DNA of 64,000 bases, taken from the NCBI GenBank assembly GCA_943332615.1, contig CALQQB010000004.1:1-64000 (forward strand), read 5' to 3'. The DNA is from Phenylobacterium deserti (lineage in GTDB: Bacteria > Pseudomonadota > Alphaproteobacteria > Caulobacterales > Caulobacteraceae). A program made the position numbers and the translations under genes. Below, in pieces: positions 10,407-40,210 of the stretch. Position 1 is the stretch's first letter. The number at the start of each line of letters is the position of its first letter. Below the pieces are notes generated by a model. It saw nothing but the letters and a program-made list of their open reading frames with translations, made no database searches and was not told the DNA's origin.

Positions 10407-10418
10407 CCCTCCTAAACT

Positions 10419-21305: not shown

Positions 21306-23585
21306 ATGGCGCGTAGAATTCGGGGCACAGGCGAGGCCTGGCTACGGGGCGGCCAGACATTCAATCACACGCTGGACATGATCCTCGAGGTCATCGGCCG
21401 GCTCGCGATCCCGGCGGTGATCTGGGGCGCGATCTGCCTCTGGCTGGGCAATGCAAAGTCGTCCGAGCTGCAGCAGACCTATGGCCTGCAATATGCCCTG
21501 GCCCGCTGCTTCAATTGGTGGGGCTGGCCTTGGCCGCAGAAGATGACGTTGAAGGGCCTCGACGGGTTCGAGCGCGTCTACACCAACGACCAGGTGCTTC
21601 ACCTGCGATGGATGACGCCCTACGCAGACGTCTATTTCCACAACCTGCGGCTCGCCGGCTGGATCTGGATCGCCGGCGTGGTGATCATCCTCTGCATCGC
21701 CACCAACTGGTTCATCCAAAGCGGCGAGGACAAGCTCAAAAGCCGCTTCATCCGCGGCCAGCGCGCCGTGCCGCTCAGCGCCCTCGTGGCCGAGGTCGAG
21801 GCCTTCAACAAAGCCGAGACGAAGCGCCGAAAGGACCGGTCCTTCCGAGCGGTCAAACTCATCGGCGTCGCGTACCCTTACGCCACCGAGCGCGAGCACA
21901 CGCTGACCGTTGGATCGCCGGGATCCGGCAAGAGCCAGGCTATCCACAAACTGCTGGAATCGATCCGCGCGCGCGGCGATCGGGCGATCATCTACGACCC
22001 GGAGCTTGAGTACACGACCTACCATTTCAATCCCGACACCGACCTGATCCTGAACCCCTACGACGCGCGCTCGGTGGGCTGGTCGCCGTACAATGACGCC
22101 CACGAGCTGCCCGAGTTCGAAAAGCTCGCGGTGTGCATCTTCAAGGAGCCGAAGTCGGGCGATCCCTATTGGACGCGGGCGACGCGCCAGGTGTTCGTCT
22201 ACGCCGCCTACCAGCTGAAGCGGCAGTACCCCGACGCCACCTTGGAAGACCTGCTGAAGGTGTTCTTCGGCCCGATGAATGTGCTGGTGAAACTGGTGGA
22301 GAACACCCCTGCGGCCACCCATCTGGCCGGCGGGTCAAACGGGCGGACGGACTCGCTTCGAAGCGTCCTGTCGGAAGGCATCAACAGCCTCGTCCACCTG
22401 GCCGGAAGCCGAGCGGATTTCTCGCTCCGCGCCTGGGTCAATCGGCCGGAGCGCAGCCCCGGCTTCCTGTTCATGTCCGCGCCTGAAACGCACATGGAGT
22501 CGCTGCGTCCGCTGCTCAGCTTCTGGTCGGAGCTGGTGGTCAGCGCCCTGCTCGGCCGGGTCGACGAACACTCGCGGCACACGACCTGGATCATCCTCGA
22601 CGAGTTCCCGAGCCTCGGCAAAGTCACCAGCCTGGCCAGCGGGCCCGAGCGTCTGCGGAAGTACGGCGGTTGCGTCGTGCTGGGGATGCAGCAGGTCTCC
22701 CAGATCCAGGAGATCTACGGCCACGAGATCGCTCAGACGATCATCGGCCAGTGCGCCACAAAGCTGATCCTGCGATGCCAGGATCCCGAGACCGCCAAGC
22801 ACATGGCCGAACAGCTCGGGCGGCGGCAGACCCGGCGCGTCGATGAGACCGTCTCGTACGGGGCCAACACGCTGCGCGACGGTGTGGGGCTGACGCCGCG
22901 CGAGGAGCTGGAACTCGTGGCGCTCCCGGACGAGGTGATGAACCTGCCCAAGTTCCACGGGTTCATCCGCCTCTCCAACGCGCGGGAGGGCGAACCCTTC
23001 CCGATCTCAACGCTGCGCTTCGGCTACACCGCCCGCCGCAAGCGCGCGGAGGGTTTGATCCTCCCCGTCGGTGTCGGTCCGGTGGATGCCTTCTTCCAGT
23101 CGCTGAAACAGCCCGCCGCACCCGCGGCGTCGGCCGCCGCGGCCTCGCCAGCGCAAGCCCCGGCCATGGCGGCTGCGGGCCGAGCCGCGGACGGTTCGCT
23201 GTTCGATGCCGACGGCGTGGTGGTGGAGGGCGAGGGCGCAGCGGCTGAGGGCGCGCGCGCCGTGCGTCCCGACCCGCCGGCGACGGGCGAGGCCCGGGGC
23301 GAGGGCGCGGCGGCTGGCGGCCCGGAACACAGCGCCTGGCGCAGCAGCGAGGACGCCATGCAGGCCGAGGCCAAGCGCCTTGCCGAGGCCGGCCCCAAAC
23401 CCGCCAGCGCCTACGCCCAACTGCACGACAAAGTCCGGCGAGACGACCAGGCGGACGTCCCGCTGGTCGGTGTCGCTTCGTGGCGGAAACGGCCGGGGGA
23501 GGAGGGGCGAGAGAGCCCCGACAAGGACGCGCCACCGGACGCCGGAATGCCGGCGCCCAGCCTCGACGTCTTCCGCCAGTCCTAA
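21306..23585 (+). CDS. traD: Type IV coupling protein TraD
   Basis: The 759-aa ATPase has two N-terminal membrane helices (about 24-47 and 116-137). A cytoplasmic motor domain follows, with Walker A VGSPGSGKSQA (near residue 202) and Walker B TTWIILDEFPSLGK (near 427), and further FtsK/TraD motifs (MQQVSQIQEIYG, ATKLILRCQDPETA). It hands the relaxase-DNA complex to the type IV secretion channel. The last 110 residues are Ala/Pro/Glu-rich and probably disordered. The ATG at 21306 is chosen because it puts the first membrane helix at a normal distance; the longer frame lacks a ribosome-binding site. traA follows 51 nt downstream. Confidence 0.92.
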   Translation: MARRIRGTGEAWLRGGQTFNHTLDMILEVIGRLAIPAVIWGAICLWLGNAKSSELQQTYGLQYALARCFNWWGWPWPQKMTLKGLDGFERVYTNDQVLHLRWMTPYADVYFHNLRLAGWIWIAGVVIILCIATNWFIQSGEDKLKSRFIRGQRAVPLSALVAEVEAFNKAETKRRKDRSFRAVKLIGVAYPYATEREHTLTVGSPGSGKSQAIHKLLESIRARGDRAIIYDPELEYTTYHFNPDTDLILNPYDARSVGWSPYNDAHELPEFEKLAVCIFKEPKSGDPYWTRATRQVFVYAAYQLKRQYPDATLEDLLKVFFGPMNVLVKLVENTPAATHLAGGSNGRTDSLRSVLSEGINSLVHLAGSRADFSLRAWVNRPERSPGFLFMSAPETHMESLRPLLSFWSELVVSALLGRVDEHSRHTTWIILDEFPSLGKVTSLASGPERLRKYGGCVVLGMQQVSQIQEIYGHEIAQTIIGQCATKLILRCQDPETAKHMAEQLGRRQTRRVDETVSYGANTLRDGVGLTPREELELVALPDEVMNLPKFHGFIRLSNAREGEPFPISTLRFGYTARRKRAEGLILPVGVGPVDAFFQSLKQPAAPAASAAAASPAQAPAMAAAGRAADGSLFDADGVVVEGEGAAAEGARAVRPDPPATGEARGEGAAAGGPEHSAWRSSEDAMQAEAKRLAEAGPKPASAYAQLHDKVRRDDQADVPLVGVASWRKRPGEEGRESPDKDAPPDAGMPAPSLDVFRQS

Positions 23586-23636
23586 CCCCCGACGCGCGCG
23601 GCGGACCTTGCTCGCCGCGCCAGTGGACCCCTCGCC

Positions 23637-26600
23637 ATGATGACACCCTCCCGCATCCGCAGCGCGGCCGGCGCCGCCAACTACTACGGTAAGGACGATT
23701 ACTACGTGACCGGCGAGGCCGGCGCGCCCGGCATCGAATGGGGCGGCAAGGGGGCGGCGTCCCTGGGGCTGTCCGGTCTGGCGACCACGGACGAATTCCA
23801 CGCGGTCCTTGCCGGAAAGAACCCCGATCCGGAGGGCCCGGCCTTGAGCGGGGCCTCCACGAAGGAGAAGCATCACCCCGGCTGGGACTTCACCTTCACG
23901 GTGCCGAAGAGCGTGAGCTTGGCGATCGTCGCGGCGGAGCAATCCGATCCCGGCCTCGCCGCCCGCCTGCAGGACCATGTGCTCGCGGCCAACAAGGCCA
24001 TGATGCAGTACCTGGAGGAGAACCATGCCGTCACCCGCGTTCGCGGCGAGGATGGAACCATCCGTGAGGTCCATACCGGGAACCTGGTCTACGGGTCGGT
24101 CCTGCACCGAACGACGCGGGCCGGCGACCCGCATTTTCACGTCCACAATCCGACCGCGAACACCACGCAAAACCCGGAGACCGGCGCCTGGGGGGCGCTC
24201 GAAACCCGCCAGATCTACAAGTGGCAGCAGGTGGCGTCACAGGTCGGCGCCCGCGAGCTGCAGGCCCGGCTCATGGCGGATGGCTTCAACCTCGAGCGCC
24301 ATGGCGAGCTGAAGTGGGAGCTGGCCGGGGCGGATCCCCGCCTGCTCGACGAGTTCAGCACGCGCGCCTCGGAGATCGAGCGCGCCAGCCAGCAGCTCGC
24401 CGCCGAGCGCGGCGTGCAAAAGGTCACGCACCACCAGCGGAACATGCTCCAGAAGCAGACTCGCAAGAACAAGGAGGCGCACGATCGCGAGGCGCTCCTC
24501 GACGGCTGGCTGGCGCGTGCGGCCAAGGTTGAAGGGGCTTCCCTGGAGGGATTGCTCAGCCGCGAGGCGGGCGGCGGCCGCGACGTGACGCCCACGTTGA
24601 AGGGGCGGATGAGCGACACCCTGCAGCGCTGGAACAGCGCTTTCCGCGACTTCCTGAAGCTCAACACCAAGCCGGATGCCTTTGGACCGTCCGCCCCGCG
24701 ATCGGACCCCGATCTCGAGGCCCGCCGGCTGATGTCGTTCGGGGTCAAGGTTGTCGAAGAGCAGAGCGCGGTGAACAGCCGCCACCTCGCCTACCTCCAC
24801 GCGCTCCGCGCAGCGCCCGCCGGCGTGACGTTCGACCGGATCAAGTCGGCCATGGGACGACTTGAGACCGATGGGCATGTGGTCGCCGCCGACAAGCAGG
24901 ACCACCACGGCTTCACGACGCGGCGCACCGTCGAGGTTGAGCGGTTCATCGTCCGCGCCGTCGATGCTGGGAAGGGCGCGGCGCGTCCCATCCTGGCGTC
25001 CGAACAGGTCGATGCGGCGCTGGCGGCGACGGCGGGCGCCGATCGCCTCAATGCAGATCAACGTAACGCCGTGGCCGGGTTCCTGGTCTCGCAGGACCGC
25101 TTCAGAGCCGTTCCGGGGTTCGCCGGCGTGGGCAAGACCTTCGCGTTCGACACCGTGCGGCAGATCGCCGAGCGCGAGGGCCAGAACGTGCTTGGCCTCG
25201 CCAGCTTCAACACGCACGCTAGAGAGCTGCAGCGTGGCGCCGGCATCAAGTCCCAGACCGTGGCGTCGTGGCTGCAAAGCGTCGAGCGCGATATCGCCGC
25301 CGGGGGCGAGCGCCTGGCTGCGCGCCGCGCGTCCCTGCAGAAGACGCACCTGATCGTCGACGAAGCCTCCACCCTCACAAATGAGGCGGGCTATCGCCTC
25401 GCGCGCGCGGTGAAGATCCTGCAGATCGACTCCGTGACGATCGCCGGCGACGCCCGCCAAACCGGGGGCCCGGGGGCGGGGAACGTGTTCAAGGCGGTGC
25501 TCGACCGGGAGATCCAGCAATTCCCGATCAAGACGATCCTGCGTCAACGGAACGCCGCCACGAACCTCCGTGACGGGGTGAAGGACCTGGCCGAGGGCCG
25601 CCTGCGCGCCGGCATGGCCAAGCTCGCGCCCCACGTCCATGCCCTGGGACCAGACGCCTCGGATGTGGATCTTGCGCGAAAGGCGGTCGACCTCTGGACC
25701 GAGAGCCGCAAGGCCGGACTGGAGTCCGTGCTGATCACCGCCACCAACCGGATGCGGGCCCTACAGTCCGCCCTCGCGCGCGGCGAGCTCCGGCAGGAGG
25801 GGCGACTGGGCAGGGAGGATGAGACCCGAGAGCGCCTGTCGCACCGCCACCTGACCCGGCCCGAGCAGTTCAGCGCCGCGTCCTATGAGCTCGGCAACAT
25901 CCTGGTGTTCAACGCCGCGTTCAGTGGCCGCGGCGCGACGAAGTCGGACCGGGCCACGGTTGTCGGCATCGACCTGCGCAACAACCTGCTCAAGGTCCAG
26001 CCCGACCGCGGGCTGCCGAGAACCCTCGACCTCAGCGCCGAACATGGGCGCGGCTACGCGAGCTTCTCAAGCTACGCCCTGGGCACGCACGAAATCGCCA
26101 GGGGCGAGCGCCTCGTCTGGGAAGCCCGCTTCAAGGATCGCGGGTATGAGCGCGGCGCGGAGTTCACTGTGGTCGAGAAGGGCAGGAAGACCTGGACCAT
26201 CGTGCACGAGGATGGTCGGCGCGAGAAGATCTCCGCCAAGGATCCGGCCCTCAGCTTCACCAGCTACGCCTATGCGATGACGACGGAACGGGCCCAGGGC
26301 AGATCGATCGAGGCGCCGATCGCCACACTGGAATCCAGCGCGGGCCGGGCGGTCGCCGAGACCAAGAACTACGTGAACTGGTCGCGCCTGACCCGCATCG
26401 GCCAGATGGTGACCGATGACGCTCCCAGGGTGTTGCGAATGCTCGCCGAGAACGACGGTCAGAAGCCAGTGGCGCTGGACCACATCCGCGAGCTTTGGAA
26501 CGCGGCTCGCGGGGCGGCCGCGAACGACGCCATGGCGCCTGTACCCATCAAGGACCGCGAGCTCGAGCTTCAGAAGGAGCGGGCGTTCGGCGGGGGTCCG

Positions 26601-26678
26601 GATGGGGCAGGGGAGCGACAGCGCACGCGCGCGCCCTCGATCGAGGTCTCGCGCGGGCGCTCGGGCCTCAACCTCTAA
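23637..26678 (+). CDS. traA: MobF-family conjugative relaxase-helicase
   Basis: The 1,013-aa protein has an N-terminal TrwC/TraI relaxase domain. Candidate nicking tyrosines occur in two pairs (Tyr16-17 and Tyr22-23), and the metal-binding histidine triad is DPHFHVHN (His166, 168, 170). The central and C-terminal parts are an SF1B helicase with Walker A GFAGVGKTF (near 495-503) and Walker B LIVDEAST, and an ERAQGRS motif near residue 883. It nicks oriT, stays covalently bound and unwinds the transferred strand. The C-terminal tail is short compared with F TraI. Two consecutive ATGs are possible starts. No mating-pore genes follow in the window. Confidence 0.92.
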   Translation: MMTPSRIRSAAGAANYYGKDDYYVTGEAGAPGIEWGGKGAASLGLSGLATTDEFHAVLAGKNPDPEGPALSGASTKEKHHPGWDFTFTVPKSVSLAIVAAEQSDPGLAARLQDHVLAANKAMMQYLEENHAVTRVRGEDGTIREVHTGNLVYGSVLHRTTRAGDPHFHVHNPTANTTQNPETGAWGALETRQIYKWQQVASQVGARELQARLMADGFNLERHGELKWELAGADPRLLDEFSTRASEIERASQQLAAERGVQKVTHHQRNMLQKQTRKNKEAHDREALLDGWLARAAKVEGASLEGLLSREAGGGRDVTPTLKGRMSDTLQRWNSAFRDFLKLNTKPDAFGPSAPRSDPDLEARRLMSFGVKVVEEQSAVNSRHLAYLHALRAAPAGVTFDRIKSAMGRLETDGHVVAADKQDHHGFTTRRTVEVERFIVRAVDAGKGAARPILASEQVDAALAATAGADRLNADQRNAVAGFLVSQDRFRAVPGFAGVGKTFAFDTVRQIAEREGQNVLGLASFNTHARELQRGAGIKSQTVASWLQSVERDIAAGGERLAARRASLQKTHLIVDEASTLTNEAGYRLARAVKILQIDSVTIAGDARQTGGPGAGNVFKAVLDREIQQFPIKTILRQRNAATNLRDGVKDLAEGRLRAGMAKLAPHVHALGPDASDVDLARKAVDLWTESRKAGLESVLITATNRMRALQSALARGELRQEGRLGREDETRERLSHRHLTRPEQFSAASYELGNILVFNAAFSGRGATKSDRATVVGIDLRNNLLKVQPDRGLPRTLDLSAEHGRGYASFSSYALGTHEIARGERLVWEARFKDRGYERGAEFTVVEKGRKTWTIVHEDGRREKISAKDPALSFTSYAYAMTTERAQGRSIEAPIATLESSAGRAVAETKNYVNWSRLTRIGQMVTDDAPRVLRMLAENDGQKPVALDHIRELWNAARGAAANDAMAPVPIKDRELELQKERAFGGGPDGAGERQRTRAPSIEVSRGRSGLNL

Positions 26679-26763: not shown

Positions 26764-27018
26764 ATGCACGGGTTGCAAGAGAGCGGGCTTCCGGAGTGGA
26801 AGCAGACCGTGCTGGTCACGATCACCCTGATCGTCATCGCCGCCGCGCACGTGCACAGTGCTCGGCAGGCCTGGTCGGAGATGCGGCAACGGGAGCTGCC
26901 GACCCGCTGGCGTCGCGCCCTCAGCTATGTTGCCCGACACGAGCTGCACTACGCCAAGCGCGTCCCCCTGCTGATCTTCTTCGTGGTCGTCGCGGTGATC
27001 GTCATCGTGACGCTGTGA
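26764..27018 (+). CDS. Small membrane protein (84 aa)
   Basis: Two hydrophobic segments (TVLVTITLIVIAAAHVH near residues 15-31 and VPLLIFFVVVAVIVIVTL at the C-terminus) flank a basic, helical loop. The topology suggests an inner-membrane hairpin. A GTG 27 nt upstream could also start it. It lies 85 nt after traA and may be part of the transfer operon; no family is recognised. Its end overlaps the convergent WGR gene by 17 nt. Confidence 0.55.
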   Translation: MHGLQESGLPEWKQTVLVTITLIVIAAAHVHSARQAWSEMRQRELPTRWRRALSYVARHELHYAKRVPLLIFFVVVAVIVIVTL

Positions 27019-27259
27019 GGGCGGGGGCCGCTCCGCCCACCAGCAGGTAGCCCCGCCTCACTTTCCGGCCCACCAGGCGGCCCAGCGCGGCCGCCGCGTC
27101 GTCGCGGGCGTGATACCAATCCTCTCGGCGCTGCCCGTGGGTGCCGATCCGCCCCCAGCGGCGAATTAGGATGACCTCCCCGAACAGCGAGCGCTCGATG
27201 GAGAGCGCGTAGAACCGAGCCATGTTGCAGCTGTTGTCGATCCGCCGGAGCACAATCAT
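27002..27259 (-). CDS. WGR-domain protein
   Basis: The 85-aa protein is essentially a single WGR domain: N-terminal MIVLRRIDNSCNMARFYAL strands, then RRWGRIGTHGQ with the diagnostic Trp-Gly-Arg, and a C-terminal helix with KVRRGYLL. WGR domains bind DNA ends or nucleic acid in PARP proteins. In bacteria they occur as stand-alone proteins on plasmids and in conflict-related loci. The full domain is present and nothing is fused to it. GGAG lies close to the ATG. Confidence 0.85.
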   Translation of the reverse strand: MIVLRRIDNSCNMARFYALSIERSLFGEVILIRRWGRIGTHGQRREDWYHARDDAAAALGRLVGRKVRRGYLLVGGAAPALTASR

Positions 27260-29067: not shown

Positions 29068-29628
29068 CTAGCGGGCCTTGGACAGGTCTGGTTTCGAGCT
29101 GAGACCTCGAGCGTCGCGGAACCAGTTGATCTTCGGGCCCCGCCCTTCCTCCGCGAGGGCTTGGCGAACGAGACGCCGCGCGACGCGTGAGACTTCCCAG
29201 GGAATTTCGTCCAGCTCCCACGCGATCTCTTCGGCGCTGCGGAAGATCCGGGGCGTCAATGCCTTCAGGACCCGGGCCTCCAGGCCCGCATCATAGTCCG
29301 GCTCGACGTTGCCGGCTTCGTAGCGATCGCACCACAGGATCCGGCCCCGCCAGACGATGAAGTGGCTTCCGCAGCCCCCGTCACGCCAGACGGATGGGTA
29401 GAGCGTCGGCGTCCCGCCGCGCATGTCCAGGCGCCATGCCTTGCCTGCACGCGGATCGAGGTTGATGACGAGGGTCTGGCCGCAGCCATCCGGGCATTGG
29501 ATCAGCAGCGAGCGCGCCTGACCCCGGAAGATCAGGGCTGCGTCGCCGGGCTGGTGAAGGTGCGGCTCCGCCTGATCCCGATACTCGGCTTGTCCGCACA
29601 GGCGTAGGGTTCTGGTGAGGCGGGTCAT
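29068..29628 (-). CDS. DUF6527-type cysteine/histidine protein of a ubiquitin-like operon
   Basis: The 186-aa protein (ATG at 29628, overlapping the kinase stop as ATGA) has a first domain with the family pattern: LLIQCPDGCGQTLVINL (Cys45, Cys49), then LYPSVWRDGGCGSHFIVWRG (Cys86, His89) and ILWC (Cys100). This order is that of DUF6527, a family repeatedly found at the end of bacterial Ubl-E2-E1 operons. Its members have been discussed as metal-binding or protease-like. Residues 115-170 look like an added winged-helix (RVLKALTPRIFRSAEEIAWE). A deconjugating or regulatory role is inference; metal binding versus a Cys-His hydrolase site cannot be decided from sequence. Confidence 0.7.
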   Translation of the reverse strand: MTRLTRTLRLCGQAEYRDQAEPHLHQPGDAALIFRGQARSLLIQCPDGCGQTLVINLDPRAGKAWRLDMRGGTPTLYPSVWRDGGCGSHFIVWRGRILWCDRYEAGNVEPDYDAGLEARVLKALTPRIFRSAEEIAWELDEIPWEVSRVARRLVRQALAEEGRGPKINWFRDARGLSSKPDLSKAR

Positions 29629-31106
29629 GTGGAAGGGCTCCGGCGCTGGGCGTCTTCGGCGAGGGCGGCGGCCACGACGTAGCCGACGCCCCGGCGGTAG
29701 CGGTCTGCGGGCGGGCCATCGTCCCATTGGCAGCGGCGCAAGAGCTGGACCGCTACCGCTGTCTGGTACTCGGTCGGGCAGGACTGTGCGGCGATCCCCA
29801 TGTGCCGGATCTGCCGCACGATCGTCGACATCCAGCCGAGATCGGAGGTCGGATCGCAGGGTCCGGGCGGGTGCTGGAAGGCCGCTGGCGCGTAGAGGCG
29901 GCGGATCTCCTCACGCCAGGCGCAGTCTTCGTATTGATCCTCCGGTCGCTCCGGCGGCAACTCGAAGGCCAGCCAGGTCTCGAGCGCCGCGAGGTCGGCT
30001 GTGAGCGGACCCCGTGCGACCGACGCGAGATCTATCAGGATCGCCTGGCCGTTCCGGACCCGCACATTCTCGCCGTGTAGGTCGCCGTGCACCGGCGCGA
30101 CCCGGTACCGCTGCTGGAGGCCCAGGAGCTTGTCCCAAAGGGCGTCGGGCGTGATCGTGACGCCCTGCTCGCGCGCCACCTCGGCAAAGCGTGGCCGAAT
30201 CAGGTCGGGCTTGCAAAGGCCCGCACCGATCATCGCGCGTGCGACGGAGCCGTGCGCGGGATCCGACGCATAGGCCTGATCCCGCCACCCGCCGAGGGTC
30301 TCGTCGATGAGGGCGGTGACGGCGGTGGCGGCCAGCTTGCGGCGGGCGAGGTCCCAGAGGGATTCGGAGCGGTCCACGAAGTTGCCGACGAGGAGGCTGC
30401 GCTCACCGCCGACGACGACATCCTGGACGTTCGGGCGCAGACCGAAAGGGATGAACTTGTCGGCGAAGTCCCGATAGTTCTGGAATTCCCGCGCGATTTT
30501 GTCGTTGCGGTCGAGCTTGGCGAACGCCGGCTGGGGCCAGACGCCCGCGTCGGACCGGTCCACCGTCATGTGCACCGCGAACACGCGGGCGTCCGAGCGG
30601 CCGCCGGTGAGCTCGACGAGCGCAATGCGGCGGCAGTGTTGGAAGGCGCGCTGGAACAGCGGCTCGTCGACCTTGCGGATCGGCTCGCGGTTGGCCGCCA
30701 CCACGATCTCCAGATCGGTCCGCGGCTTGTAGCCCGCATCGTGGCGCGCCGCGGCCTCGGCGACTTCGAACCCGCAAGGCGTGGTCCTCACGCTGACGTT
30801 GGGCAGGGCAATGGCCGCCCCGAGGCGGGCCTGCACGCGGCCGGTTGTGGCGTCGTCGGGCGCGATCAGCTCGACGCGGACGCCATAGTCGACAAGCGTA
30901 CGGGCGTGCGCCGCGGCGACGGCGAACAGGCCCTCGCGGTCGCGCTTGGGGAAGGCGAAGACGGCGGCGGCCACGCCGGCCAAGGGCGGCAGCGGGGCGT
31001 CGTCGCCGATCGAGGCGATCGTCAGGCGGCGGTTGGCGAATTCCCGCGCCCCTTGGGCGCTCGGGGCTTCGCCGAACCAGAGGACTTCGTGGCGCAGCTC
31101 ATCCAT
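29625..31106 (-). CDS. APH-fold (aminoglycoside phosphotransferase-like) kinase in the ubiquitin-like operon
   Basis: The 493-aa protein has a C-terminal kinase with the Brenner motif VHGDLHGENV (His340, Asp342, Asn347), a metal-binding Asp359 in ILIDLASV, and a candidate ATP lysine in FAKLDR (Lys197). Residues 1-135 resemble a flavodoxin/receiver-like alpha/beta domain (AAAVFAFPKRDREGLF, VDYGVRVELIAP) without clear receiver aspartates. The gene overlaps the E1-JAB gene by 8 nt and the DUF6527 gene by 4 nt, so it is an integral part of the cassette. It could phosphorylate the Ubl, a target, or a nucleotide or small molecule. Such kinases are not a standard part of the bacterial Ubl operons I know. 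Confidence 0.75.
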   Translation of the reverse strand: MDELRHEVLWFGEAPSAQGAREFANRRLTIASIGDDAPLPPLAGVAAAVFAFPKRDREGLFAVAAAHARTLVDYGVRVELIAPDDATTGRVQARLGAAIALPNVSVRTTPCGFEVAEAAARHDAGYKPRTDLEIVVAANREPIRKVDEPLFQRAFQHCRRIALVELTGGRSDARVFAVHMTVDRSDAGVWPQPAFAKLDRNDKIAREFQNYRDFADKFIPFGLRPNVQDVVVGGERSLLVGNFVDRSESLWDLARRKLAATAVTALIDETLGGWRDQAYASDPAHGSVARAMIGAGLCKPDLIRPRFAEVAREQGVTITPDALWDKLLGLQQRYRVAPVHGDLHGENVRVRNGQAILIDLASVARGPLTADLAALETWLAFELPPERPEDQYEDCAWREEIRRLYAPAAFQHPPGPCDPTSDLGWMSTIVRQIRHMGIAAQSCPTEYQTAVAVQLLRRCQWDDGPPADRYRRGVGYVVAAALAEDAQRRSPST

Positions 31107-32454
31107 GGCGCGCCTCAGTCGGCCGGACCGGCAGGGGCCAAGCGCTGCCGCGGGCTAGCGCCCCTGACGCCGAGCACACGATGCAGGTCTCCACTTGGCT
31201 CGCGCGCGCCGGCCGGACAGTCCCCCGCACGCCATCGTAATATTGGAACCGGGCCGTCGCGGGCGCCGGAGTCACGGCGCCCAGGAACATGGTGACAGCG
31301 AGCGACGCCATCGTCGAATTGATCGAGATCACCGCCGGTTGCGGCTCGTGCGCGCCCTGGACGTAGGGGTCAGCGCGACGCTGGTCGGGCGTCAGCAGTT
31401 CGCGGCGGATTTGTTCGCTGTCGAGCGCCCCTGTGCATGTGAGGCACGAAAGCCCTGGGGCGAGCATCTGGACCCGCCCGGTGACATGGGACACCACGCC
31501 GTCCCGCGCGGTGAGGCTGACCCCCATGTCGAAGGTCGGCACGAGGTACTGATAAGCCAGCTGGCCGACGACGGCGCGGCTCGCGTGCGAGTCGGTGCAG
31601 AGGAATATCGCATCTAGGCCGGCGAGTTGCGGCGCGACTTCCGCGTCGACCACGTCGGCCATCAACCCGCGGATCATGGCGTCGGGATGGATCGCGCGGA
31701 TCAGCCGTTCGGCGACCTCCACCTTGGGGCGTCCGACGTCACCGCGCCCCGAACCCACGAGGCGGTTCAGGTTCGTGGGTTCGACCCGGTCGGGGTCGAT
31801 GATTGTGTAGTCCGCGACGCCCAGGTGGGCGAGCTGCTGCAGGGTGACCGAGCCCGTGCCGCCGGCGCCCACGACGCCCACACGGAGGCGCCGCAAGAGG
31901 TCCTGCCCGGCAGAGCCGAAGGCGCGGATCTGGCGGTCATGCCGCCCATCCTCGAGTCCCTCCTCCAGCCCGTCTCTGGGGGCGGGAGAGCGCAGCACGA
32001 GGCGTTCGCCCACCTCCCAGACTGGGACGTTCGGCCCGCCGCCGAGATGGCGTGCTCGGCAGCCATCGGGCCCAACCACCAGCGCAAGGTGTGCGCCCTC
32101 AGGCGCCCTCCGATCGAGGTAGGCTTTCAGTTCCGCCTCCCCCGCGTCGTCGACTGCGGAGAACGCCGGCGCGCCAGAGGCCCAGGGGTGCGTGTGCGTG
32201 ACTATCACGCTGAGGCCTTCGGCACGGGCCCGGTTGGCGACCTCCACCAGGAAGGCGGGCTTCAGGGTCGCATGGGTGCGGTCGCGGCGCTCGTAGGCGG
32301 CCTCCGGCGCCAGCTCGGCCGTCGTCACCACCCAGCTCTCGGCCGCGGCGTCGTGGCGGGCATAGGCGATCCCGCAGCTCTCCCGCATGCGGGCGGCCAG
32401 GAGCCTATCGCGGTACGCGGCGAACCGGGGAGACGCGAAGCGGACGCCGCTCAT
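31099..32454 (-). CDS. JAB/JAMM peptidase fused to an E1-like (ThiF-fold) activating enzyme
   Basis: The 451-aa fusion has an N-terminal JAB deubiquitinase-like domain with a plausible complete zinc set: Glu25, His87-x-His89 in THTHPW, and Ser99...Asp102. Residues 185-430 are a ThiF/MoeB/E1 domain: GVVGAGGTGSVTLQQLAHLG (ATP loop 196-201), IIDPDRVEPTNLNR, an aspartate in FLCTDS, and two CxxC pairs (337/340 and 424/427) for a structural zinc. It should adenylate the C-terminal glycine of the neighbouring Ubl, and its JAB part would remove or process it. No extra conserved cysteine is obvious for a thioester besides Cys286. The ATG at 32454 overlaps the E2 stop (ATGA); 87 nt of longer frame was discarded. 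Confidence 0.88.
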   Translation of the reverse strand: MSGVRFASPRFAAYRDRLLAARMRESCGIAYARHDAAAESWVVTTAELAPEAAYERRDRTHATLKPAFLVEVANRARAEGLSVIVTHTHPWASGAPAFSAVDDAGEAELKAYLDRRAPEGAHLALVVGPDGCRARHLGGGPNVPVWEVGERLVLRSPAPRDGLEEGLEDGRHDRQIRAFGSAGQDLLRRLRVGVVGAGGTGSVTLQQLAHLGVADYTIIDPDRVEPTNLNRLVGSGRGDVGRPKVEVAERLIRAIHPDAMIRGLMADVVDAEVAPQLAGLDAIFLCTDSHASRAVVGQLAYQYLVPTFDMGVSLTARDGVVSHVTGRVQMLAPGLSCLTCTGALDSEQIRRELLTPDQRRADPYVQGAHEPQPAVISINSTMASLAVTMFLGAVTPAPATARFQYYDGVRGTVRPARASQVETCIVCSASGALARGSAWPLPVRPTEARHG

Positions 32455-32834
32455 TGGAGCCTCCGCAGGCGGTCGATGATGGTGTTCATCCAGCTCGACA
32501 GGGTGTCGCGGTTGGGGTTCCAGGGCTGGGCCAGGTGCCAAGAGAACCAGAGGCCCGGCGCGCCGGTCTCGGGCGGGATGTTCCCCGCGGCGGCGTTCTG
32601 CGGAAGCCGGTCGCCCGCCAGCCGCAGATCATTGTCCGCCCAGAAGCAGTCCAAGGCCGCGAACGGATAAGCCGCCGGGACGAGGAACCGGATGGCGCTC
32701 GCCGGTTTCGTCCACCCCTGGGGCAGCGGCACGGCCTGGACGGTGACCAGGTGCGTACCGCTGCCCAGGCGCGTCACCTCGACCGCCGCGTAGCGCTCGC
32801 GCAGCTGCTGGAGCTGGAGTTCGAGGACGCTCAT
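32451..32834 (-). CDS. Prokaryotic E2-like protein (Prok-E2 family E type)
   Basis: The 127-aa protein is compact, with the layout of bacterial E2-like domains: an N-terminal helix (VLELQLQQLRERYAAVEVTR), beta-strands, a conserved AAYPFAALDCFW loop, and a C-terminal FSWHLAQPWNPNRDTLSSWM segment followed by a helix. Only one cysteine exists (Cys63, in ALDCFW), at the position after the YP motif. It would accept activated Ubl from the E1 and pass it to a target. It starts within the Ubl stop codon (TGATG) and overlaps E1-JAB by ATGA, so stoichiometric translation is likely. Whether Cys63 or another residue carries the Ubl is unknown. Confidence 0.75.
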   Translation of the reverse strand: MSVLELQLQQLRERYAAVEVTRLGSGTHLVTVQAVPLPQGWTKPASAIRFLVPAAYPFAALDCFWADNDLRLAGDRLPQNAAAGNIPPETGAPGLWFSWHLAQPWNPNRDTLSSWMNTIIDRLRRLQ

Positions 32835-33109
32835 CAGCCGAAGTTCGCCTTCGGGACCGACGAGAAGCGGCGCGGGCCGCCCTGGACGTCGAGCTGCACG
32901 AGCTCGTCGTCGCGAATCACTTGGTCCGGGTCGTGGCCGTGACCTTCGAGGACGAGGTCGTGGCTCGGGTCCCAGTCGGGCACGCGCGCCTTGATCTGCA
33001 GGCCGGTGAGGGCCGGTTGATCGGTGACGTACTTCACGCCGTTGACGAAAAAGTTGAAGCGGGGAGGCGGGTGTGGGGCCGCGCTCGGAGGGGTGGGATG
33101 GTCAGCCAT
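32834..33109 (-). CDS. Ubiquitin-like protein (multi-ubiquitin family, single beta-grasp domain)
   Basis: The 91-aa product has a Pro/His-rich N-terminal tail (residues 1-16) and one beta-grasp-like domain: FNFFVNGVKYVTDQPALTG, the short helix region LQIKARVPDWDPSHDLVLEG and DELVQLDVQGGPRRF. This is the signature of the Multi_ubiq family, the modifiers of bacterial Ubl conjugation operons. It ends FSSVPKANFG, so the polypeptide stops at a single C-terminal glycine. No residues follow that would need to be trimmed. It is the first of five overlapping genes. A longer homologous copy, as in tandem multi-ubiquitins, is absent. Confidence 0.85.
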   Translation of the reverse strand: MADHPTPPSAAPHPPPRFNFFVNGVKYVTDQPALTGLQIKARVPDWDPSHDLVLEGHGHDPDQVIRDDELVQLDVQGGPRRFSSVPKANFG

Positions 33110-33189: not shown

Positions 33190-36100
33190 TCAGAACTTTT
33201 TTTCGAAGGCACCTTCCACGACCGGGCCGCAGATGAAGAAGGCCGGGCAGCGCGGACAGGTGAAGGGCGACTCCTTCATCGGGAACCGGCCGGCCGCGAT
33301 GTCAGCCATGGCCGCTTCGACCTTGGCCCGCCGCGTCGTCAGCTTCCTGGGCGTGAGGTCCAGCACGGTCTGGGTGTTGTCGGCCAGGTGCACCAGTTCG
33401 ACCCGACATCCTGGGAACGCATCCTGCGCCGCGAGCTGGAATGCGGCCGCGCCGAGGTTGTCGCGTTGCGACGCACTGAGGTGCCCGCTGCGGATGCTGC
33501 GCACGGCATGTCCGGTCTCGTCCACGAGGATCTCGTCGGGCGTCACCACGATCTCGCCGCCGGCGACGACCAGGCGCAGCGGTTCGGGCACGATCGATCG
33601 ACGGCCGCGCCGCTGATCGGCGAAATACCCGACGAGCGTCGTCCCGATCGCGCGGAAGTCGGCGGCGTAGCCATGTCCCGCGACGTCGTGACTGTCGAAG
33701 AGGGTAGTGAAGACCTCGGCGACGACTGCGTCGTCTGCCTCCTCCGGCGGCCGGGCGGCTAGGATTTTGACCGTGGCCTGGACGACGTCGTGCAGGCCCA
33801 TAAAGGCGGTTGTGGTCCGACGGCCGCCCACCTCGAGGATGTGGGTGTAGAAGAACCGCCTAGGGCACCTCTCGTAGAGGGCGATCTGGGCCTCAGTAAA
33901 GCTCAAGGGGCCGGCGAAGCGGACCGGAATCGGCGTCGCGTCGTCGTCGGGCGCGCTGGCGGCGGACGCCACGCGCCGTAGCTGCAGGCGGCCGAGGCGG
34001 GCGAGGAATGGTGAGGGGTCGCGGCGGGCCCCGTTCGCGGTTGCCTGGGCCGAGTAGAGGAACAGGCGATCGCGCGCCCGCGACAAGGCGACGTAAAGCA
34101 GGCACTCCTGTTCCTCGGTCTCGCTGGCGCTGACGACGTCGCGGCCGGACCCGGCGGCCCCCTCGATCAGGCCGACCGGCGGCGGACAGGGCGGCGGCGG
34201 GCCGCCGGTCCGGGGGAAGGCATTGTTGTTGAGCCCGAGCAGGTGGACGACGGGGAACTCCAGCCCCTTGCTGCCGTGGACCGTCATCAGGCGGACGGCG
34301 TCGATCTCCTGGGCGGCCAGCGGCAGCTGGCGGAGATCGCGCTCGTCGGCCAGTAGCACCAGCCGGCGGATGCGTTCCAAGAGGCGTTGGATGGGCAGCC
34401 CGGCGGCGGCCTTCTGCACGCGGACGAAGTTCATGAACTGCCAGATGGCCAGGCCGCGCCCGCGGCTCGCGACATCGTCGGCCGCGGCGATGTGCGCGGC
34501 GATCCGCGTGCGGTCGAGCAGCAGCCGCGCCAGCACGTCCCACGGCGCCGCGTTGCTGGCGAAGCCGTCCAGCAGCGCGGCCATCCGAGTCACCGCCGCG
34601 GCGCCGTCTGGGCTCAGGTCCGGACCGCTGGTCGGGTCGAGCCACCTGAGGCTGCTCTCCGCCGACTTCAGGTGCGCGAGTAGGGCGGCGACGTCGGATA
34701 GCGGCGCGTCCAGCCCAGCTGCCTTGCGCCGGGCCAAGCCCATGGCGCGCCTGTCGATGAGAAGCGAGAGCCAGGCGAGCAGGTCCTTGATCTCCGGCCG
34801 CTCGAACAGGCTGCCGAGGAACAGGACAGGGATGTCGGCCCGCTCGAGGGCTTCACCCAACCGCGCCAGCCGCTCGTTGCCCTTGCAGAGCACCGCCTGG
34901 TCGCGCCAGGCGCGTCGGTCGACCTGCACCTCGCGCACGACCGCGGCGAGCGCTCCGGCTTCGTCGTCTCCCGTCGGGAACTGCACGTGGCTCGGCGTCT
35001 GGCCGCAGGCGCCGCGCTCAGCGTGCAGGTCCGCAGGCCCGGTCCCCGCGACCATGGCGCGCCCGAAGCCGGAGTAGGCGTCGACGATCTCCTTGGCGGA
35101 CCGGTAATTGATCTCCAGGCGGCTGCCGGCCGCGCCGGGGAAGTCCACGGTCTTGAAGCTCGCCATGTTGAAGGAGGAGGCACCGCGGAAGCGGTAGATG
35201 GACTGGCGGGCGTCGCCTACGGCCCAGAGGTTCTGCCCCTTGTTGGTCAGCAGCTGCAGTAGCCGGACGCTCGCCCGATTGACGTCCTGGTACTCGTCGA
35301 CCAGCACGTGCCGGTAAGTGTCGCGAAGCTGCGCAGCGATGTCGGAGCGCCCGCCGAGGAGCTTGACCGGAAGGGTCACGAGGTCGCCGAAGTCGATCGC
35401 GCCGGCCTTGGCCTTGATGGCCTCGTAGGCGGCGTAGACCTTCGCCACTTCCGCGGCCCTCGCCGCCGCCTCGTGCTCCGCCGCGTTTGTCGCCGTTCGC
35501 GCCATCGCCTCGGCGAGATCAGCGTAGCGCTGCGGGGCGACCAATTCGTCCTGCGCGCGGGACATGGCCCCCAAGAGGTCGCGCAGCAGCTGGCTCGGGT
35601 CCCAGAGATTCCGGTAATGGACGAGGCCGAGCCGCGTGAACTCGGCCTCCAGCAGCTCGATGGCCTCCGGCCGGTCCATCATGCGCGGCGGCTGAGCGAA
35701 CCCGAGCTCCGCATGGAACCGCCGGACTAGGTCGAGGCCGAAGGCGTGGAAGGTGCCGATGAACATCGCCGCGGCCGCGTCCGGCCGTTGCGCTGCAATG
35801 CGATCCGACAGTTCCCCCGCCGCTTTGTTGGAATAGGTCAGGACGAGGATGCTGCGCGGATCGACGGCCTTTTCTTCTAAGAGGAACCGGGTGCGGCCGA
35901 CCAGCGTCTGGGTCTTCCCCGTACCGGGGCCGGCTTCGAGCAGGTAAACGTCACCGAAATGACAGGCGGCCTTCAGCTGCGCGGCGTTCAGCGGCTTCTC
36001 GGGCTTGGGCTCGGCCTCGGTTCGCGCGACGACCGGGAGCAGCAGCGCATCGAGCATCTGCTGGGCGACCGCCTCATAGGGCGCGCCCACGCGCTGGGCG

Positions 36101-36576
36101 ACGGCGCTCGCGGTCATGCCGTCCCGATGGAGGTCCCGGAGCCACGACCGCGGCATTAGGAGTTCGCGGCCGAACAGATCCATCAGCACTTCGCGACGCT
36201 GACGGCGGTTATAATCGACGACGCGCTCTTCGCCGACCGGGGCGGCTTCGGCCGGCCGGGCAGGATCGACTGCGTCAACGATGTCCTCCACCTGGTCGTC
36301 CCCTAGGCTCGCGTGACCGAGCTCGTGGCCGACCAGGAATGCATCGTGAAAGCGGTCGCCAGTCGCCTCGTGCTGGATGGCTCGGGCCTTCGGGTCGAAG
36401 ACCGCCCGACCGCCCTTCAAGCCGACACTGCCGGGCTTCACCGGCTCCACGTCGAGCTTTAGCCCGCGCGCCACGGAGCAGGCGATGTCATAGGGCTGCC
36501 AGGGGTCGATGCCCTTGGCGACCGCCGCAGCGTGCAGCGACGCCGCGTGCTGGCGGGCGACCTCGATCGCGTCCAT
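33190..36576 (-). CDS. ImmA/IrrE-like metallopeptidase - UvrD helicase - FeS nuclease-like fusion
   Basis: The 1,128-aa protein combines three parts. Residues 1-175 are an ImmA/IrrE-type zincin with HELGH (84-88) and a downstream Glu in REVLMDLFGRELLMP. Residues 195-870 are a UvrD/Rep SF1A helicase with Walker A EAGPGTGKTQT (214-224), DEYQD and SKGLEFPVVHLLGLNN. The C-terminus resembles the AddB/Cas4 nuclease domain, with four cysteines of a likely iron-sulfur cluster (RCPRRFFYTH near 905; TCPRCPAFFIC near 1107-1117). The nuclease core is degenerate (VTPDEILVDETGHAVRS), as no clear D...ExK triad is seen. It likely senses or processes DNA in phage defence. It sits 5 nt downstream of the 195-aa gene and 80 nt upstream of the Ubl gene. 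Confidence 0.85.
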   Translation of the reverse strand: MDAIEVARQHAASLHAAAVAKGIDPWQPYDIACSVARGLKLDVEPVKPGSVGLKGGRAVFDPKARAIQHEATGDRFHDAFLVGHELGHASLGDDQVEDIVDAVDPARPAEAAPVGEERVVDYNRRQRREVLMDLFGRELLMPRSWLRDLHRDGMTASAVAQRVGAPYEAVAQQMLDALLLPVVARTEAEPKPEKPLNAAQLKAACHFGDVYLLEAGPGTGKTQTLVGRTRFLLEEKAVDPRSILVLTYSNKAAGELSDRIAAQRPDAAAAMFIGTFHAFGLDLVRRFHAELGFAQPPRMMDRPEAIELLEAEFTRLGLVHYRNLWDPSQLLRDLLGAMSRAQDELVAPQRYADLAEAMARTATNAAEHEAAARAAEVAKVYAAYEAIKAKAGAIDFGDLVTLPVKLLGGRSDIAAQLRDTYRHVLVDEYQDVNRASVRLLQLLTNKGQNLWAVGDARQSIYRFRGASSFNMASFKTVDFPGAAGSRLEINYRSAKEIVDAYSGFGRAMVAGTGPADLHAERGACGQTPSHVQFPTGDDEAGALAAVVREVQVDRRAWRDQAVLCKGNERLARLGEALERADIPVLFLGSLFERPEIKDLLAWLSLLIDRRAMGLARRKAAGLDAPLSDVAALLAHLKSAESSLRWLDPTSGPDLSPDGAAAVTRMAALLDGFASNAAPWDVLARLLLDRTRIAAHIAAADDVASRGRGLAIWQFMNFVRVQKAAAGLPIQRLLERIRRLVLLADERDLRQLPLAAQEIDAVRLMTVHGSKGLEFPVVHLLGLNNNAFPRTGGPPPPCPPPVGLIEGAAGSGRDVVSASETEEQECLLYVALSRARDRLFLYSAQATANGARRDPSPFLARLGRLQLRRVASAASAPDDDATPIPVRFAGPLSFTEAQIALYERCPRRFFYTHILEVGGRRTTTAFMGLHDVVQATVKILAARPPEEADDAVVAEVFTTLFDSHDVAGHGYAADFRAIGTTLVGYFADQRRGRRSIVPEPLRLVVAGGEIVVTPDEILVDETGHAVRSIRSGHLSASQRDNLGAAAFQLAAQDAFPGCRVELVHLADNTQTVLDLTPRKLTTRRAKVEAAMADIAAGRFPMKESPFTCPRCPAFFICGPVVEGAFEKKF

Positions 36577-36581
36577 GAGCC

Positions 36582-37169
36582 TTAGGCCTCGTCGCGCAGT
36601 AGTGCCGCGCGGCGATCCGCCGGGACCATCGCCTGATCGAGGAGATCGGCGAACGCCACCTTATCGGCCGCGGCTGCAGGCTTGCCGTCCGCCTTGTACT
36701 GCATAGCGGGATCGAGGCGCGCGGGGGCGGTCAGGGCCGCGCGCAGCTCCTGGGAAGCGATGCTCAGCAATTGCGCGAACCTCGCGAGGAAGGGCTCCGG
36801 CACAGTGCCGGGATCGACCTGCCGGTCGCGGAAGGCATTGAACACCATGGAGGGGACGTCCAGCGTCTGGCGAATCTCCACTTGGCGGGCGCTGTTCAGC
36901 GTGGCGAACGGATCCGCTACGGACGCGTGTCCTCGGGCGACGCCGGCGGCCTTGGCGAAGCGGGCCCACGACTCGGTCTCCCAAGCGGTGTCCGGGGTGT
37001 AGGGTGCCGCGTCATCGGCCTCGACCGCGCGAAGTTCTTGCGCGAAGTCGATCAGCTCGCCGGCGAATTGCGGATAGCGGCGGACATAGTCCGCCAGGGT
37101 CGCGTCGTCGGCGCCGGCCTCGGCGAAGGCCTCCAGAGTGGCGTCCAAGTCGGGGATGGCGGATGTCAT
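36582..37169 (-). CDS. Unknown protein of a sigma-like / ImmA-UvrD module (195 aa)
   Basis: The protein is acidic and helical, with an N-terminal LDATLEAFAEAGADDATLADYVRRYP segment, a middle part rich in Asp/Ala, and no membrane segment or known motif. It starts inside the end of the sigma-like gene (ATGA overlap) and ends 5 nt before the helicase, so it works with them. By analogy with ECF sigma/anti-sigma pairs it could be a regulator of the sigma-like protein that the ImmA peptidase cleaves. That is inference only. Confidence 0.7.
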   Translation of the reverse strand: MTSAIPDLDATLEAFAEAGADDATLADYVRRYPQFAGELIDFAQELRAVEADDAAPYTPDTAWETESWARFAKAAGVARGHASVADPFATLNSARQVEIRQTLDVPSMVFNAFRDRQVDPGTVPEPFLARFAQLLSIASQELRAALTAPARLDPAMQYKADGKPAAAADKVAFADLLDQAMVPADRRAALLRDEA

Positions 37170-38020
37170 GCGCCCCCCTCGAGGTCCAGCGCCCGCTGTA
37201 GGGCGGCGATCGCCTTCTTAGCCCGGTTCCGCACCGTCTTTTCCACGCAGCCCATCAGCTTGCTGATGGTCACCACGTCGGGGTCGTTCGAGTCTATCGG
37301 CATCCCGATCCTGAGCATTGCGATGATCCTGCTTTGTTCGCTTGGCAGGCTCCTGATCGCCGCATCCAGGCGCGACCGGTAAGCGGGATCGTCCCATTCT
37401 TCCGGGTTCGGCAGCGCGAGGCTTCCGGCTGCGGTCTCGACCTCGAGGCTCAGTTCGCCGTCTTCCCCGTCGGCCTCGAGCGGAGTCTGGCGTGCCGCCT
37501 CCCGCCAGGCTCTCTCTCGTGCGGTGGCGCGAAGGCGCGCGAGGCTGAAGTTGAATCGGGCCTCGAAGATGTCGAGTTGGTCCTCCCCGCCCTGACGGTC
37601 GCGGACCAGGAGTTCCTCGAACCGGTCGCGGACCTGGTTGCGGATCTGGCTGCGCGTGACATCCACGCCGACATTGTCGCCCATTCGGTGCTCGGCGCGG
37701 GGCAGGGCGCGATCCACGCGGCGCATCAGGGCCACGTACAGCCGCTCGAAATAGCGCTCGTTGTTGTCGCTCGCGGTCTTTCGCACGAGGTGCAGAAGGC
37801 ATTCGGACGGTACGTAGTCCGGGTGGTTGCGGTCCTGGCCCGCGACCGCCGCAAGGATTTCTTCGCGCCCAAGGGTCAGGATGCGCTCCAGGGCACCCTC
37901 GATCTCTAAGGGTCGCCGATAGAGGTTTCCATCCTCCGTGCGCTTGGTCAGCGGCGGCGGCGACAAAGGCGTGCTCCTAGGGGCGGCCGCGATGAGCCGG
38001 ACGCGTGGCTCTTTGAACAA
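37166..38020 (-). CDS. Sigma-70-like regulatory protein (284 aa)
   Basis: Residues about 90-195 form a charged helical region comparable to sigma region 2 (LYVALMRRVDRALPRAEHR, ARLRATARERAWREAARQ). Residues 218-280 look like sigma region 4, with a helix-turn-helix (AAIRSLPSEQSRIIAMLRIG, VTISKLMGCVEKTVRNRAKKAI). The N-terminal 60 residues are low-complexity. It is the first gene of the minus-strand run toward the ubiquitin-like genes. It may direct RNA polymerase to the promoter of this same operon or to other defence genes. It is longer and more divergent than ordinary ECF sigma factors, so DNA-binding specificity cannot be predicted. Confidence 0.7.
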   Translation of the reverse strand: MFKEPRVRLIAAAPRSTPLSPPPLTKRTEDGNLYRRPLEIEGALERILTLGREEILAAVAGQDRNHPDYVPSECLLHLVRKTASDNNERYFERLYVALMRRVDRALPRAEHRMGDNVGVDVTRSQIRNQVRDRFEELLVRDRQGGEDQLDIFEARFNFSLARLRATARERAWREAARQTPLEADGEDGELSLEVETAAGSLALPNPEEWDDPAYRSRLDAAIRSLPSEQSRIIAMLRIGMPIDSNDPDVVTISKLMGCVEKTVRNRAKKAIAALQRALDLEGGA

Positions 38021-38137: not shown

Positions 38138-38863
38138 CTAGGTCTCCTCGCCTTCGCTTTCGATTGCCACTGACGCCGCGCCGCCGAGCGCTTCGTATCG
38201 GCGAGCCGATAGCCACTGAAGCCGCTTGGCCTGCGTCAGCAACACCCGCCGAAGGCCGCCCTGGACCTTCCTCTCGGAAATCACCTGCGCGAGGCGCGAG
38301 ATGATCAGAGAGCGGCGCGCGATGCGAAAGTCGGGGTGCGACCTCAGCTCGTGGACCCGCTCGGAGATGATACGCCCCCGAAAGGATGGCGGTGCCTCGA
38401 CGGTGAGGTCCCCCGGCGGCGGGTCCTTCTCGTTAAGGATGGCCTTGAACTGTGACCCCGCCACGGCCCGGTCGGTGATCAGCCGCTCAAGCGCATCGAG
38501 GTGCTGGCGGGCCGCTAGGTCGGACCGACTGGACTCCTGGAACTGGGGGAGGGGCCAGACCTCGATCTCGAATACCTCGAAAGGATCCAGGACCGACATC
38601 GCGACCGCGTCGGTGCGCTGATTGGTCAGGTGGCGGCGGATGCGGGTCCGCAACCGCTCGTTGGTCTGGCCGACATAGATCGGCTCGCCGTCGTAGTCGA
38701 AGAAGGCGTAGACGCCCCAGCGGTAGTTGCCGACGAAGGGCCTCGCGCCCGACGGATCATCGAACGGGCTGTCGAGGAAGGTGGTCAGGTTCTGGCGAAG
38801 GTCCTCGGTTTCGAACGGCGGGAAGTTGATCGCGTCCGGATCGCGCTTGAAGAGGTCGCTCAC
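38138..38863 (-). CDS. GIY-YIG nuclease, candidate restriction endonuclease
   Basis: The 241-aa protein has a GIY-YIG fold: GVY (50-52), then IYVGQ (62-66) with Arg73/Arg76 in the following helix (ERLRTRIRRHLTNQ) and a metal-binding Glu in LDALERLIT. The first 45 residues and the last 80 (Arg-rich helices) are target-recognition or dimerisation parts. The gene overlaps the C5-methyltransferase stop-start by 4 nt, an arrangement typical of a type II restriction-modification pair such as the Eco29kI-type systems. A role in cleaving DNA unmethylated at the methyltransferase's site is inferred. The recognition sequence is unknown. Confidence 0.8.
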   Translation of the reverse strand: MSDLFKRDPDAINFPPFETEDLRQNLTTFLDSPFDDPSGARPFVGNYRWGVYAFFDYDGEPIYVGQTNERLRTRIRRHLTNQRTDAVAMSVLDPFEVFEIEVWPLPQFQESSRSDLAARQHLDALERLITDRAVAGSQFKAILNEKDPPPGDLTVEAPPSFRGRIISERVHELRSHPDFRIARRSLIISRLAQVISERKVQGGLRRVLLTQAKRLQWLSARRYEALGGAASVAIESEGEET

Positions 38864-40002: not shown

Positions 40003-40210
40003 GCGCGCGGCGCTCGCTGCTTTGCGACTCGGGGAGGGCGCGCTCGCGGGAGAGTTTTTCCTCGATCGCCTCGGCGATCCAGGTGTTGCGCGAGACGTTG
40101 CCCGGGCGCGCGGCGCAGGCCGCGTCGATCTCAGCAAACGTGTCGCCGGCCAGACGAAGGTTGATGCGGTCCAGGCTGCGCACCGTCGCGGTCTTCGAAT
40201 CGGAATCCAT
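39995..40210 (-). CDS. Ribbon-helix-helix protein of the restriction-modification operon
   Basis: The 71-aa protein starts at the ATG at 40210. It has a short N-terminal strand (TATVRSLDRINLRL) and two helices (AEIDAACAARPGNVSRNTWI, AEAIEEKL), the pattern of small RHH/CopG-like regulators. It overlaps the methyltransferase by 8 nt and heads the operon. It could regulate the modification and restriction genes, like C-proteins in other systems, which is inferred from position. Confidence 0.6.
   Translation of the reverse strand: MDSDSKTATVRSLDRINLRLAGDTFAEIDAACAARPGNVSRNTWIAEAIEEKLSRERALPESQSSERRAHG

Follow-up and report, generated by a model that had tools for sequence, protein, structure and literature searches.

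A predicted APH-fold kinase encoded within one class of bacterial ubiquitin-like operons

In eukaryotes, kinases are closely woven into ubiquitin signalling. Among the bacterial systems that employ ubiquitin-like proteins (Ubls), Bil (BilABCD) is defined by an E2 that carries the canonical catalytic cysteine. Another arrangement, type 6e as set out by Iyer, Burroughs and Aravind in 2006, combines one to three Ubl repeats with an E2/RWD-like protein lacking a conserved cysteine, a JAB domain fused before the E1, and a zinc-type protein with a CxxxC signature (section 14 of PMC1779556). Two regulators of Bub (bacterial ubiquitination-like) operons are described in the relevant passages of PMC13373217: CapH and CapP, a helix-turn-helix (HTH) protein and a peptidase, form a DNA-damage regulator, and CapK of the CapK+CapS system, an HTH-STAS-GHKL kinase encoded upstream, phosphorylates a repressor. 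Here we describe an operon of the type 6e kind on the minus strand of a 64,000-nucleotide (nt) stretch of Phenylobacterium deserti DNA (contig CALQQB010000004.1 of assembly GCA_943332615.1, positions 1 to 64,000), referred to below as the window. Between positions 29068 and 33109, five open, overlapping genes encode, in order, a Ubl, an E2-like protein, a JAB-E1 fusion, an APH-fold kinase and a DUF6527 protein. Successive genes overlap by 1, 4, 8 and 4 nt, and these coordinates and overlaps match the original prediction, which was made from the sequence alone.

The base four-gene operon is known: it is type 6e, evidently today's Bub pathway. The window encodes a Multi_ubiq Ubl ending in ...KANFG, an E2-like protein without the canonical cysteine and a JAB domain N-terminal to the E1, and we take DUF6527 to be the CxxxC zinc-type protein. 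The second half of its motif reads C-x2-H (C86, H89) in the kinase class, whereas the motif printed in the type 6e section of Iyer 2006 is H-x2-C. The best solved relatives of the E2-like protein and the JAB-E1 are Citrobacter BubB and BubCD (9ea4, 9ea5, 9eae, 9eav), and no kinase is named among these structures. Section 14 of PMC1779556 gives type 6e no kinase, helicase-protease or sigma-like partner, whereas the window has all three; a term search of that paper returned 0 occurrences of 'phosphotransferase' and 'aminoglycoside'. Unlike CapK, the window kinase has an APH fold, is encoded inside the operon and has no GHKL or STAS match in Pfam. The operon also differs from Bil in that its E2-like protein lacks the canonical catalytic cysteine.

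The lanthipeptide kinase LxmK works with a partner on its precursor peptide; in comparison with LxmK (9dk1-9dk3), no comparable partner was identified for the window kinase. A few APH kinases appear in the passages of PMC7159879 on vWA-MoxR-VMAP conflict systems. The window kinase is assigned to TCAD9 by Pfam but has other partners, and vWA, MoxR and VMAP gave no match among the window proteins scanned. As a separate observation, a haloarchaeal plasmid (L093) carries an E1 and two E2-like genes of the operon's family beside MoxR and vWA genes. Our literature search returned no match for DUF6527 and none for the combination of multiubiquitin, ubiquitin-like, aminoglycoside phosphotransferase, JAB and defense system. 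Neither the kinase-bearing class nor its helicase cassette turned up in the literature searched, whose coverage does not extend to the main Bub paper (Ye 2026); the novelty of the class is not proven, and Ye 2026 may mention it.

Sequence comparisons show that the kinase is a stable, conserved part of the operon. A protein search returned at least 138 kinase relatives at E <= 1e-3, a lower bound because only the 7996 candidates sharing most words were scored, for which reason the comparison with 569 DUF6527 relatives is unusable for counting kinase-less operons. Scanning of contigs yielded 22 loci, of which 18 belong to the kinase family and four are of generic APH type; the latter (L019-L022), with matches of 114 to 726 bases and no other operon gene found, were not counted as family. 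Among plasmids, 14 records matched the kinase, 12 with an adjoining E1 and two (L094, L095) as fragments. The set holding both kinase and E1, termed kinase-positive below, comprises 27 loci (L001-L015, L017, L018, L047-L050, L054, L055, L060, L116, L133 and the window), including L011 and L060, whose kinase and E1, respectively, are split over two frames and were not mended. All 27 also hold the Ubl, E2-like and DUF6527 genes. The order Ubl-E2-E1-kinase-DUF6527 is preserved in 25, which include plasmids as well as loci from two Acidobacteriota and one Deinococcus. In the other two (L054, L116) the order is Ubl-E2-E1-DUF6527-Ubl2-kinase, with the kinase adjoining the second Ubl. Kinase copies outside this set are broken or cut: three are fragments (L080, 223 amino acids (aa); L094, with DUF6527; L095), and in L016, close to the end of a contig, a Ubl is followed by a broken-off kinase frame, the 8 kb available downstream yielding no further operon gene. 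The original prediction had the kinase belonging to a Ubl/E2-like/E1-JAB/DUF6527 operon and lying between E1 and DUF6527. The completeness of all 27 operons bears this out, the recurrence of the gene order argues against chance or a sequencing artefact, and the kinase is not found equally often beside unrelated genes. We also note tandem pairs of DUF6527 genes after the kinase in L015 (9559-10703) and L018 (8944-10200).

In a survey of 198 genomes of one family, E1 was detected at E <= 1e-40 in 13 genomes (14 places) and the kinase in three. The kinase stands beside both E1 places scoring above 490 bits and beside none of the 12 others (at most 264 bits); the third kinase match, a fragment, lies some 100 kb away from a different type of E1. 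Across 397 genomes of the order, 15 carry DUF6527 and three of these have the kinase operon (G730, G984, G479). In the one region retrieved for each of the remaining twelve, eleven show E1 and DUF6527 without the kinase, and one (L126) shows DUF6527 alone and is placed in neither the kinase-positive nor the kinase-negative class. The kinase is rare, occurring in 1 of 385 genomes of the taxonomic class (the window's own) and in 2 of 101 genomes from the genus, each time as part of such an operon. Viral contigs yielded no kinase relative and three weak DUF6527 relatives (L096-L098, DUF6527 only).

The comparisons further show that the predicted kinase is conserved within one E1 group and occurs with a characteristic Ubl tail and a characteristic E2-like core. 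A quick tree of the E1s from 45 loci (25 kinase-positive and 20 kinase-negative; L115, L116, L133 and the regions retrieved in the survey of the order not included) places all kinase-positive rows in one group of 26 together with L046 (SH-like approximate likelihood ratio test, SH-aLRT, 84, not starred). The kinase label requires two changes on this tree, against an average of 15 for shuffled labels, and none of 500 shuffles was as low. The Ubl tail P[KP]xx[FY]G is present in 27/27 kinase-positive operons and in none of the 32 kinase-negative loci with a Ubl. The E2-like protein carries WFSWH in all 27 kinase-positive loci, Cys63 in 26 (Ser in L133) vs 0/28 kinase-negative E2 domains, and Ser98 in 27/27 vs 1/28; for Ser292 of the E1 the counts are 27/27 vs 2/35. 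A C-terminal extension of DUF6527 (about 70 aa) was found in 24 of 26 kinase-positive loci and is unmatched in L047 and L055. By eye the extension resembles an HTH; Pfam families of this kind matched single members of 60, at best with 0.0077, and we make no such claim. No hydroxyl residue of the Ubl is peculiar to the kinase-positive class, which makes phosphorylation of the Ubl neither more nor less likely. The Thr/Ser column of its TG motif holds Thr or Ser in 26 of 29 kinase-positive rows (two gaps, one Glu), and since kinase-negative Ubls have the same motif (e.g. L051, L052, L053), we regard it as a family trait that argues neither way. The class features fit co-specialisation with the kinase but do not prove it, since all members may descend from a single ancestor.

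The individual proteins can be assigned with differing certainty. The Ubl matches Multi_ubiq in Pfam at 30.2 bits (cut-off 24.5; E 5e-7), and a sequence search found multi-ubiquitin proteins as PDB relatives of a Synechocystis Ubl. The E2-like protein matches Prok-E2_E (Pfam, 2e-9) and, by profile, Citrobacter BubB (9eae/9eav, 1.5e-15). Its sole cysteine, C63, lies in the strand preceding the active-site loop, and W96-F97-S98-W99-H100 is positioned near the former active site as assigned by alignment. The JAB-E1 matches ThiF above the cut-off (Pfam, 8e-40) and Prok-JAB below it (3e-4, 21 bits against 25). In the 18 rows of its alignment A5, the JAMM residues H87, H89, S99 and D102 and the adenylation residues G196/198/199/201, D220, R231, K244 and D288 are invariant. 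It matches Citrobacter BubCD (9ea4) at 5e-32 by single sequence and 3.9e-67 by profile, BubCD covering residues 68-396. Five E1 cysteines (C286, C337, C340, C424, C427) are present in all 15 kinase-positive rows, of which C337, C340, C424 and C427 look like zinc ligands; no extra conserved cysteine is visible in these rows. A normal E1-E2 thioester relay is unlikely, judging from the alignments, because the E2-like protein lacks the canonical cysteine, and the classical conjugation relay implied by the original prediction is not borne out. DUF6527 matches its Pfam family at 67 bits (cut-off 23.6; E 1e-18), and its zinc-type residues are nearly universal in alignment A3 (n = 60: C45 in 60, C49 in 59, C86 in 59, H89 in 60); it has no credible PDB relative by sequence. 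No PADLOC model matches the Ubl, E2-like protein, kinase or DUF6527, and the E1 matches generic E1-E2 models. The Ubl, E2-like protein and DUF6527 matched no NCBIfam model, and the E1 and kinase stayed under cut-offs among the matches listed.

The kinase comprises an apparently receiver-like N-terminal domain (residues about 1-125) and a kinase domain (about 140-490), the latter with the fold and the Lys, Glu, HGDLHxxN and Asp residues of the APH-like superfamily. These catalytic residues (K197, E207, H340-G-D342-L-H-x-x-N347, D359) are conserved, also in rows of as little as 24 percent identity. Pfam matches were to TCAD9 (4e-14; 52.9 bits, cut-off 40) and APH (5e-6); in the genome search a single stretch scored for TCAD9, at 35.4 bits and under the cut-off. 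By fold it comes closest to choline, aminoglycoside and methylthioribose kinases. A match to the release-factor-like family acVLRF1 at residues 179-262 (E 0.0038) is under the cut-off, falls on the kinase N-lobe of the model and was rejected. An extra N-terminal alpha/beta domain had been predicted and is present; more exactly it appears receiver-like and is without the phosphoacceptor Asp, since strand 45-51 is followed by F-P-K and alignment A4 has no conserved Asp there. The mean top-residue frequency is 0.68 in the kinase part and 0.46 in the N-terminal domain. The closest kinase relative, at 95 percent, is from a Phenylobacterium metagenome-assembled genome, and the genome is Phenylobacterium-like.

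The five genes of the original prediction stand as a set, but the unit was incomplete. Three further genes on the same strand (33190-38020), encoding a sigma-like regulator, a 195-aa protein and a helicase-protease, precede the Ubl with spacings of -4, +5 and 80 nt, and the operon unit is one of eight genes, bigger than the five-gene span (Table 1). The sigma-like protein matches Sigma70_r4_2 under the cut-off (0.0025); one Acinetobacter homologue is annotated as a sigma factor, and the position of the gene in the cassette is conserved. Profile matches to the 195-aa protein occur at the same position in kinase-positive and kinase-negative helicase cassettes. The trio, or the part of it within the contig, directly precedes the Ubl in 9/27 kinase-positive loci (the window, L001, L002, L006-L009, L011, L060) and in 10/35 kinase-negative loci (L056-L059, L061, L086, L087, L117, L118, L122), of which L056-L059 and L061 were picked for their helicase match and are not an independent sample of this linkage. 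Among 60 plasmid records matching the helicase at E <= 1e-150, a redundant sample with 33 from Acinetobacter, at least 52 by hand count carry an E1, belonging to either of two types, roughly 0.8-1.7 kb downstream. L049, L051 and L052 have an HTH and ImmA pair in place of the trio. In the other helicase-linked kinase-positive loci the Ubl domains number three, but the window combines the helicase with a single Ubl, preceded by the 80-nt gap. In L018, a second Ubl-E1 set headed by the same trio (10352-16951) follows the kinase-positive operon.

Table 1. Features of the window, with the second Ubl genes of two related loci.
Feature	Location	Strand	Remarks
Ubl (Multi_ubiq)	32834..33109	-	91 aa; C-terminal end VPKANFG
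E2-like protein	32451..32834	-	127 aa; without canonical active-site Cys
JAB-E1 (ThiF) fusion	31099..32454	-	451 aa; ATG at 32454; start in open reading frame list is an earlier TTG
APH-fold kinase	29625..31106	-	493 aa
DUF6527 protein	29068..29628	-	186 aa; ATG at 29628
ImmA/IrrE (M78, HELGH) + UvrD helicase + PDDEXK nuclease	33190..36576	-	1128 aa; Pfam and motifs; Cys motif near C-terminus
195-aa protein between sigma-like and helicase genes	36582..37169	-	no Pfam family
Sigma-70 region-4-like regulator	37166..38020	-	284 aa; listed with a TTG start, exact start uncertain
TrwB-type coupling protein + TrwC relaxase	21168-26678	+	
GIY-YIG protein, C5 cytosine methylase, AbiEii and AbiEi genes (upstream of cassette)	38138-42708	-	
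Small WGR-domain gene, downstream of DUF6527	27002-27259	-	
Second separate Ubl gene directly before kinase, downstream of DUF6527	L054 8987-10730; L116 5573-7377		

The eight-gene cassette probably rides on a conjugative element, since the window also encodes a TrwB-type coupling protein and a TrwC relaxase. Together with AbiEi/AbiEii, the C5 methylase and the GIY-YIG protein, these surroundings give no more than a hint of a mobile defence island. An AbiEii-type gene adjoins the cassette in L056 too, and a WGR gene is also found downstream of the kinase-positive operon in L048.

The locus represents a kinase-bearing class of the Iyer type-6e/Bub operon inside an eight-gene cassette, and we tentatively propose that the kinase gates a noncanonical Ubl transfer; our confidence in this reading falls somewhat short of an even balance. 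JAB would trim the Ubl tail behind Phe-Gly and the E1 would adenylate the Ubl, with the E2-like protein, devoid of the canonical cysteine, serving as adaptor or acceptor in a non-thioester route. The kinase, which we infer acts on a pathway protein, may dock via its receiver-like domain and phosphorylate a pathway component, thereby gating transfer. Near its former active site, the E2-like protein offers one candidate phosphorylation site, Ser98; Ser292 of the E1 is a second. By analogy, DUF6527 may help to choose targets as an adaptor, and the helicase-protease and sigma-like genes may tie expression to DNA damage. In a bolder version, which we consider very improbable, phosphorylation would lie within the transfer chemistry itself, the kinase and a cysteine-less E2 with an invariant serine close to the old active site replacing the E2 thioester step by a phospho- or oxyester-linked route; if true, this would be a mode of Ubl attachment not known in eukaryotes.

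Several observations weigh against the gating proposal. In a profile built from both classes, E1 scores are a poor guide and hardly separate them: intact kinase-positive E1s start at 492 bits, kinase-negative ones reach 490, and L046 scores 543. The kinase is dispensable in some operons, as in L046 (a Roseomonas plasmid) and L115 (an Ochrobactrum plasmid) an E1 of this group's type abuts DUF6527 with no kinase. In each of the two, the E1 gene is cut short at its front end and the region retrieved contains transposases. The DUF6527 extension is also present in these two kinase-less loci and partly in L056, L058 and L059. The class-specific residues may reflect mere common descent, one gain on the E1 tree being one independent event. 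The helicase trio precedes only nine of the 27 kinase-positive operons, and its link to DNA damage is drawn by analogy. Lastly, the APH-fold neighbours of the kinase mostly act on small molecules.

This last point leads to a rival that we rate as rather unlikely: the substrate could be a small molecule (a nucleotide, polyamine, lipid head group or phage-made compound), and a signal so made or removed would switch the Ubl pathway on. The choline, aminoglycoside and methylthioribose kinases among the nearest folds point this way, as does the stronger conservation of the kinase part relative to the N-terminal domain, which is expected for one fixed substrate. A free metabolite kinase, however, need not be accompanied by a class-specific Ubl tail and E2 core, nor need it stand with a second Ubl as the kinase does in two loci. 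The fast-evolving receiver-like domain could instead be a target- or Ubl-binding module of an effector that phosphorylates host or phage proteins, the Ubl system localising, activating or restraining it. The pairing of kinase and Ubl in 27/27 complete loci is consistent with this, but the kinase-less relatives with the same E1 type (L046, L115) speak against it; we judge this explanation unlikely. Finally, the kinase might be a passenger: an APH gene acquired a single time and passed on with an operon that seldom recombines, playing no part in the Ubl pathway. Two changes (e.g. one gain and one loss) do explain its spread on the E1 tree, and two relatives do without it. The conservation of its catalytic residues in distant relatives, the translational overlaps and the joint presence of kinase and operon across several phyla make us regard a mere passenger as very improbable.

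In the literature consulted for comparison, accounts of bacterial ubiquitin-like operons include no kinase among the conjugation genes. A class that combines such a kinase with a Ubl tail and an E2-like core of its own would provide a small genetic system in which to probe cross-talk between phosphorylation and ubiquitin-like transfer, with Ser98 in the E2-like protein as a concrete candidate site and D342A as a catalytic mutant. The cassette as a whole also connects these operons with a protease-helicase-nuclease, which points to a DNA-triggered stress or defence response. The kinase, as a regular part of this gene set, suggests that phosphorylation and ubiquitin-like tagging are coupled in some bacteria.

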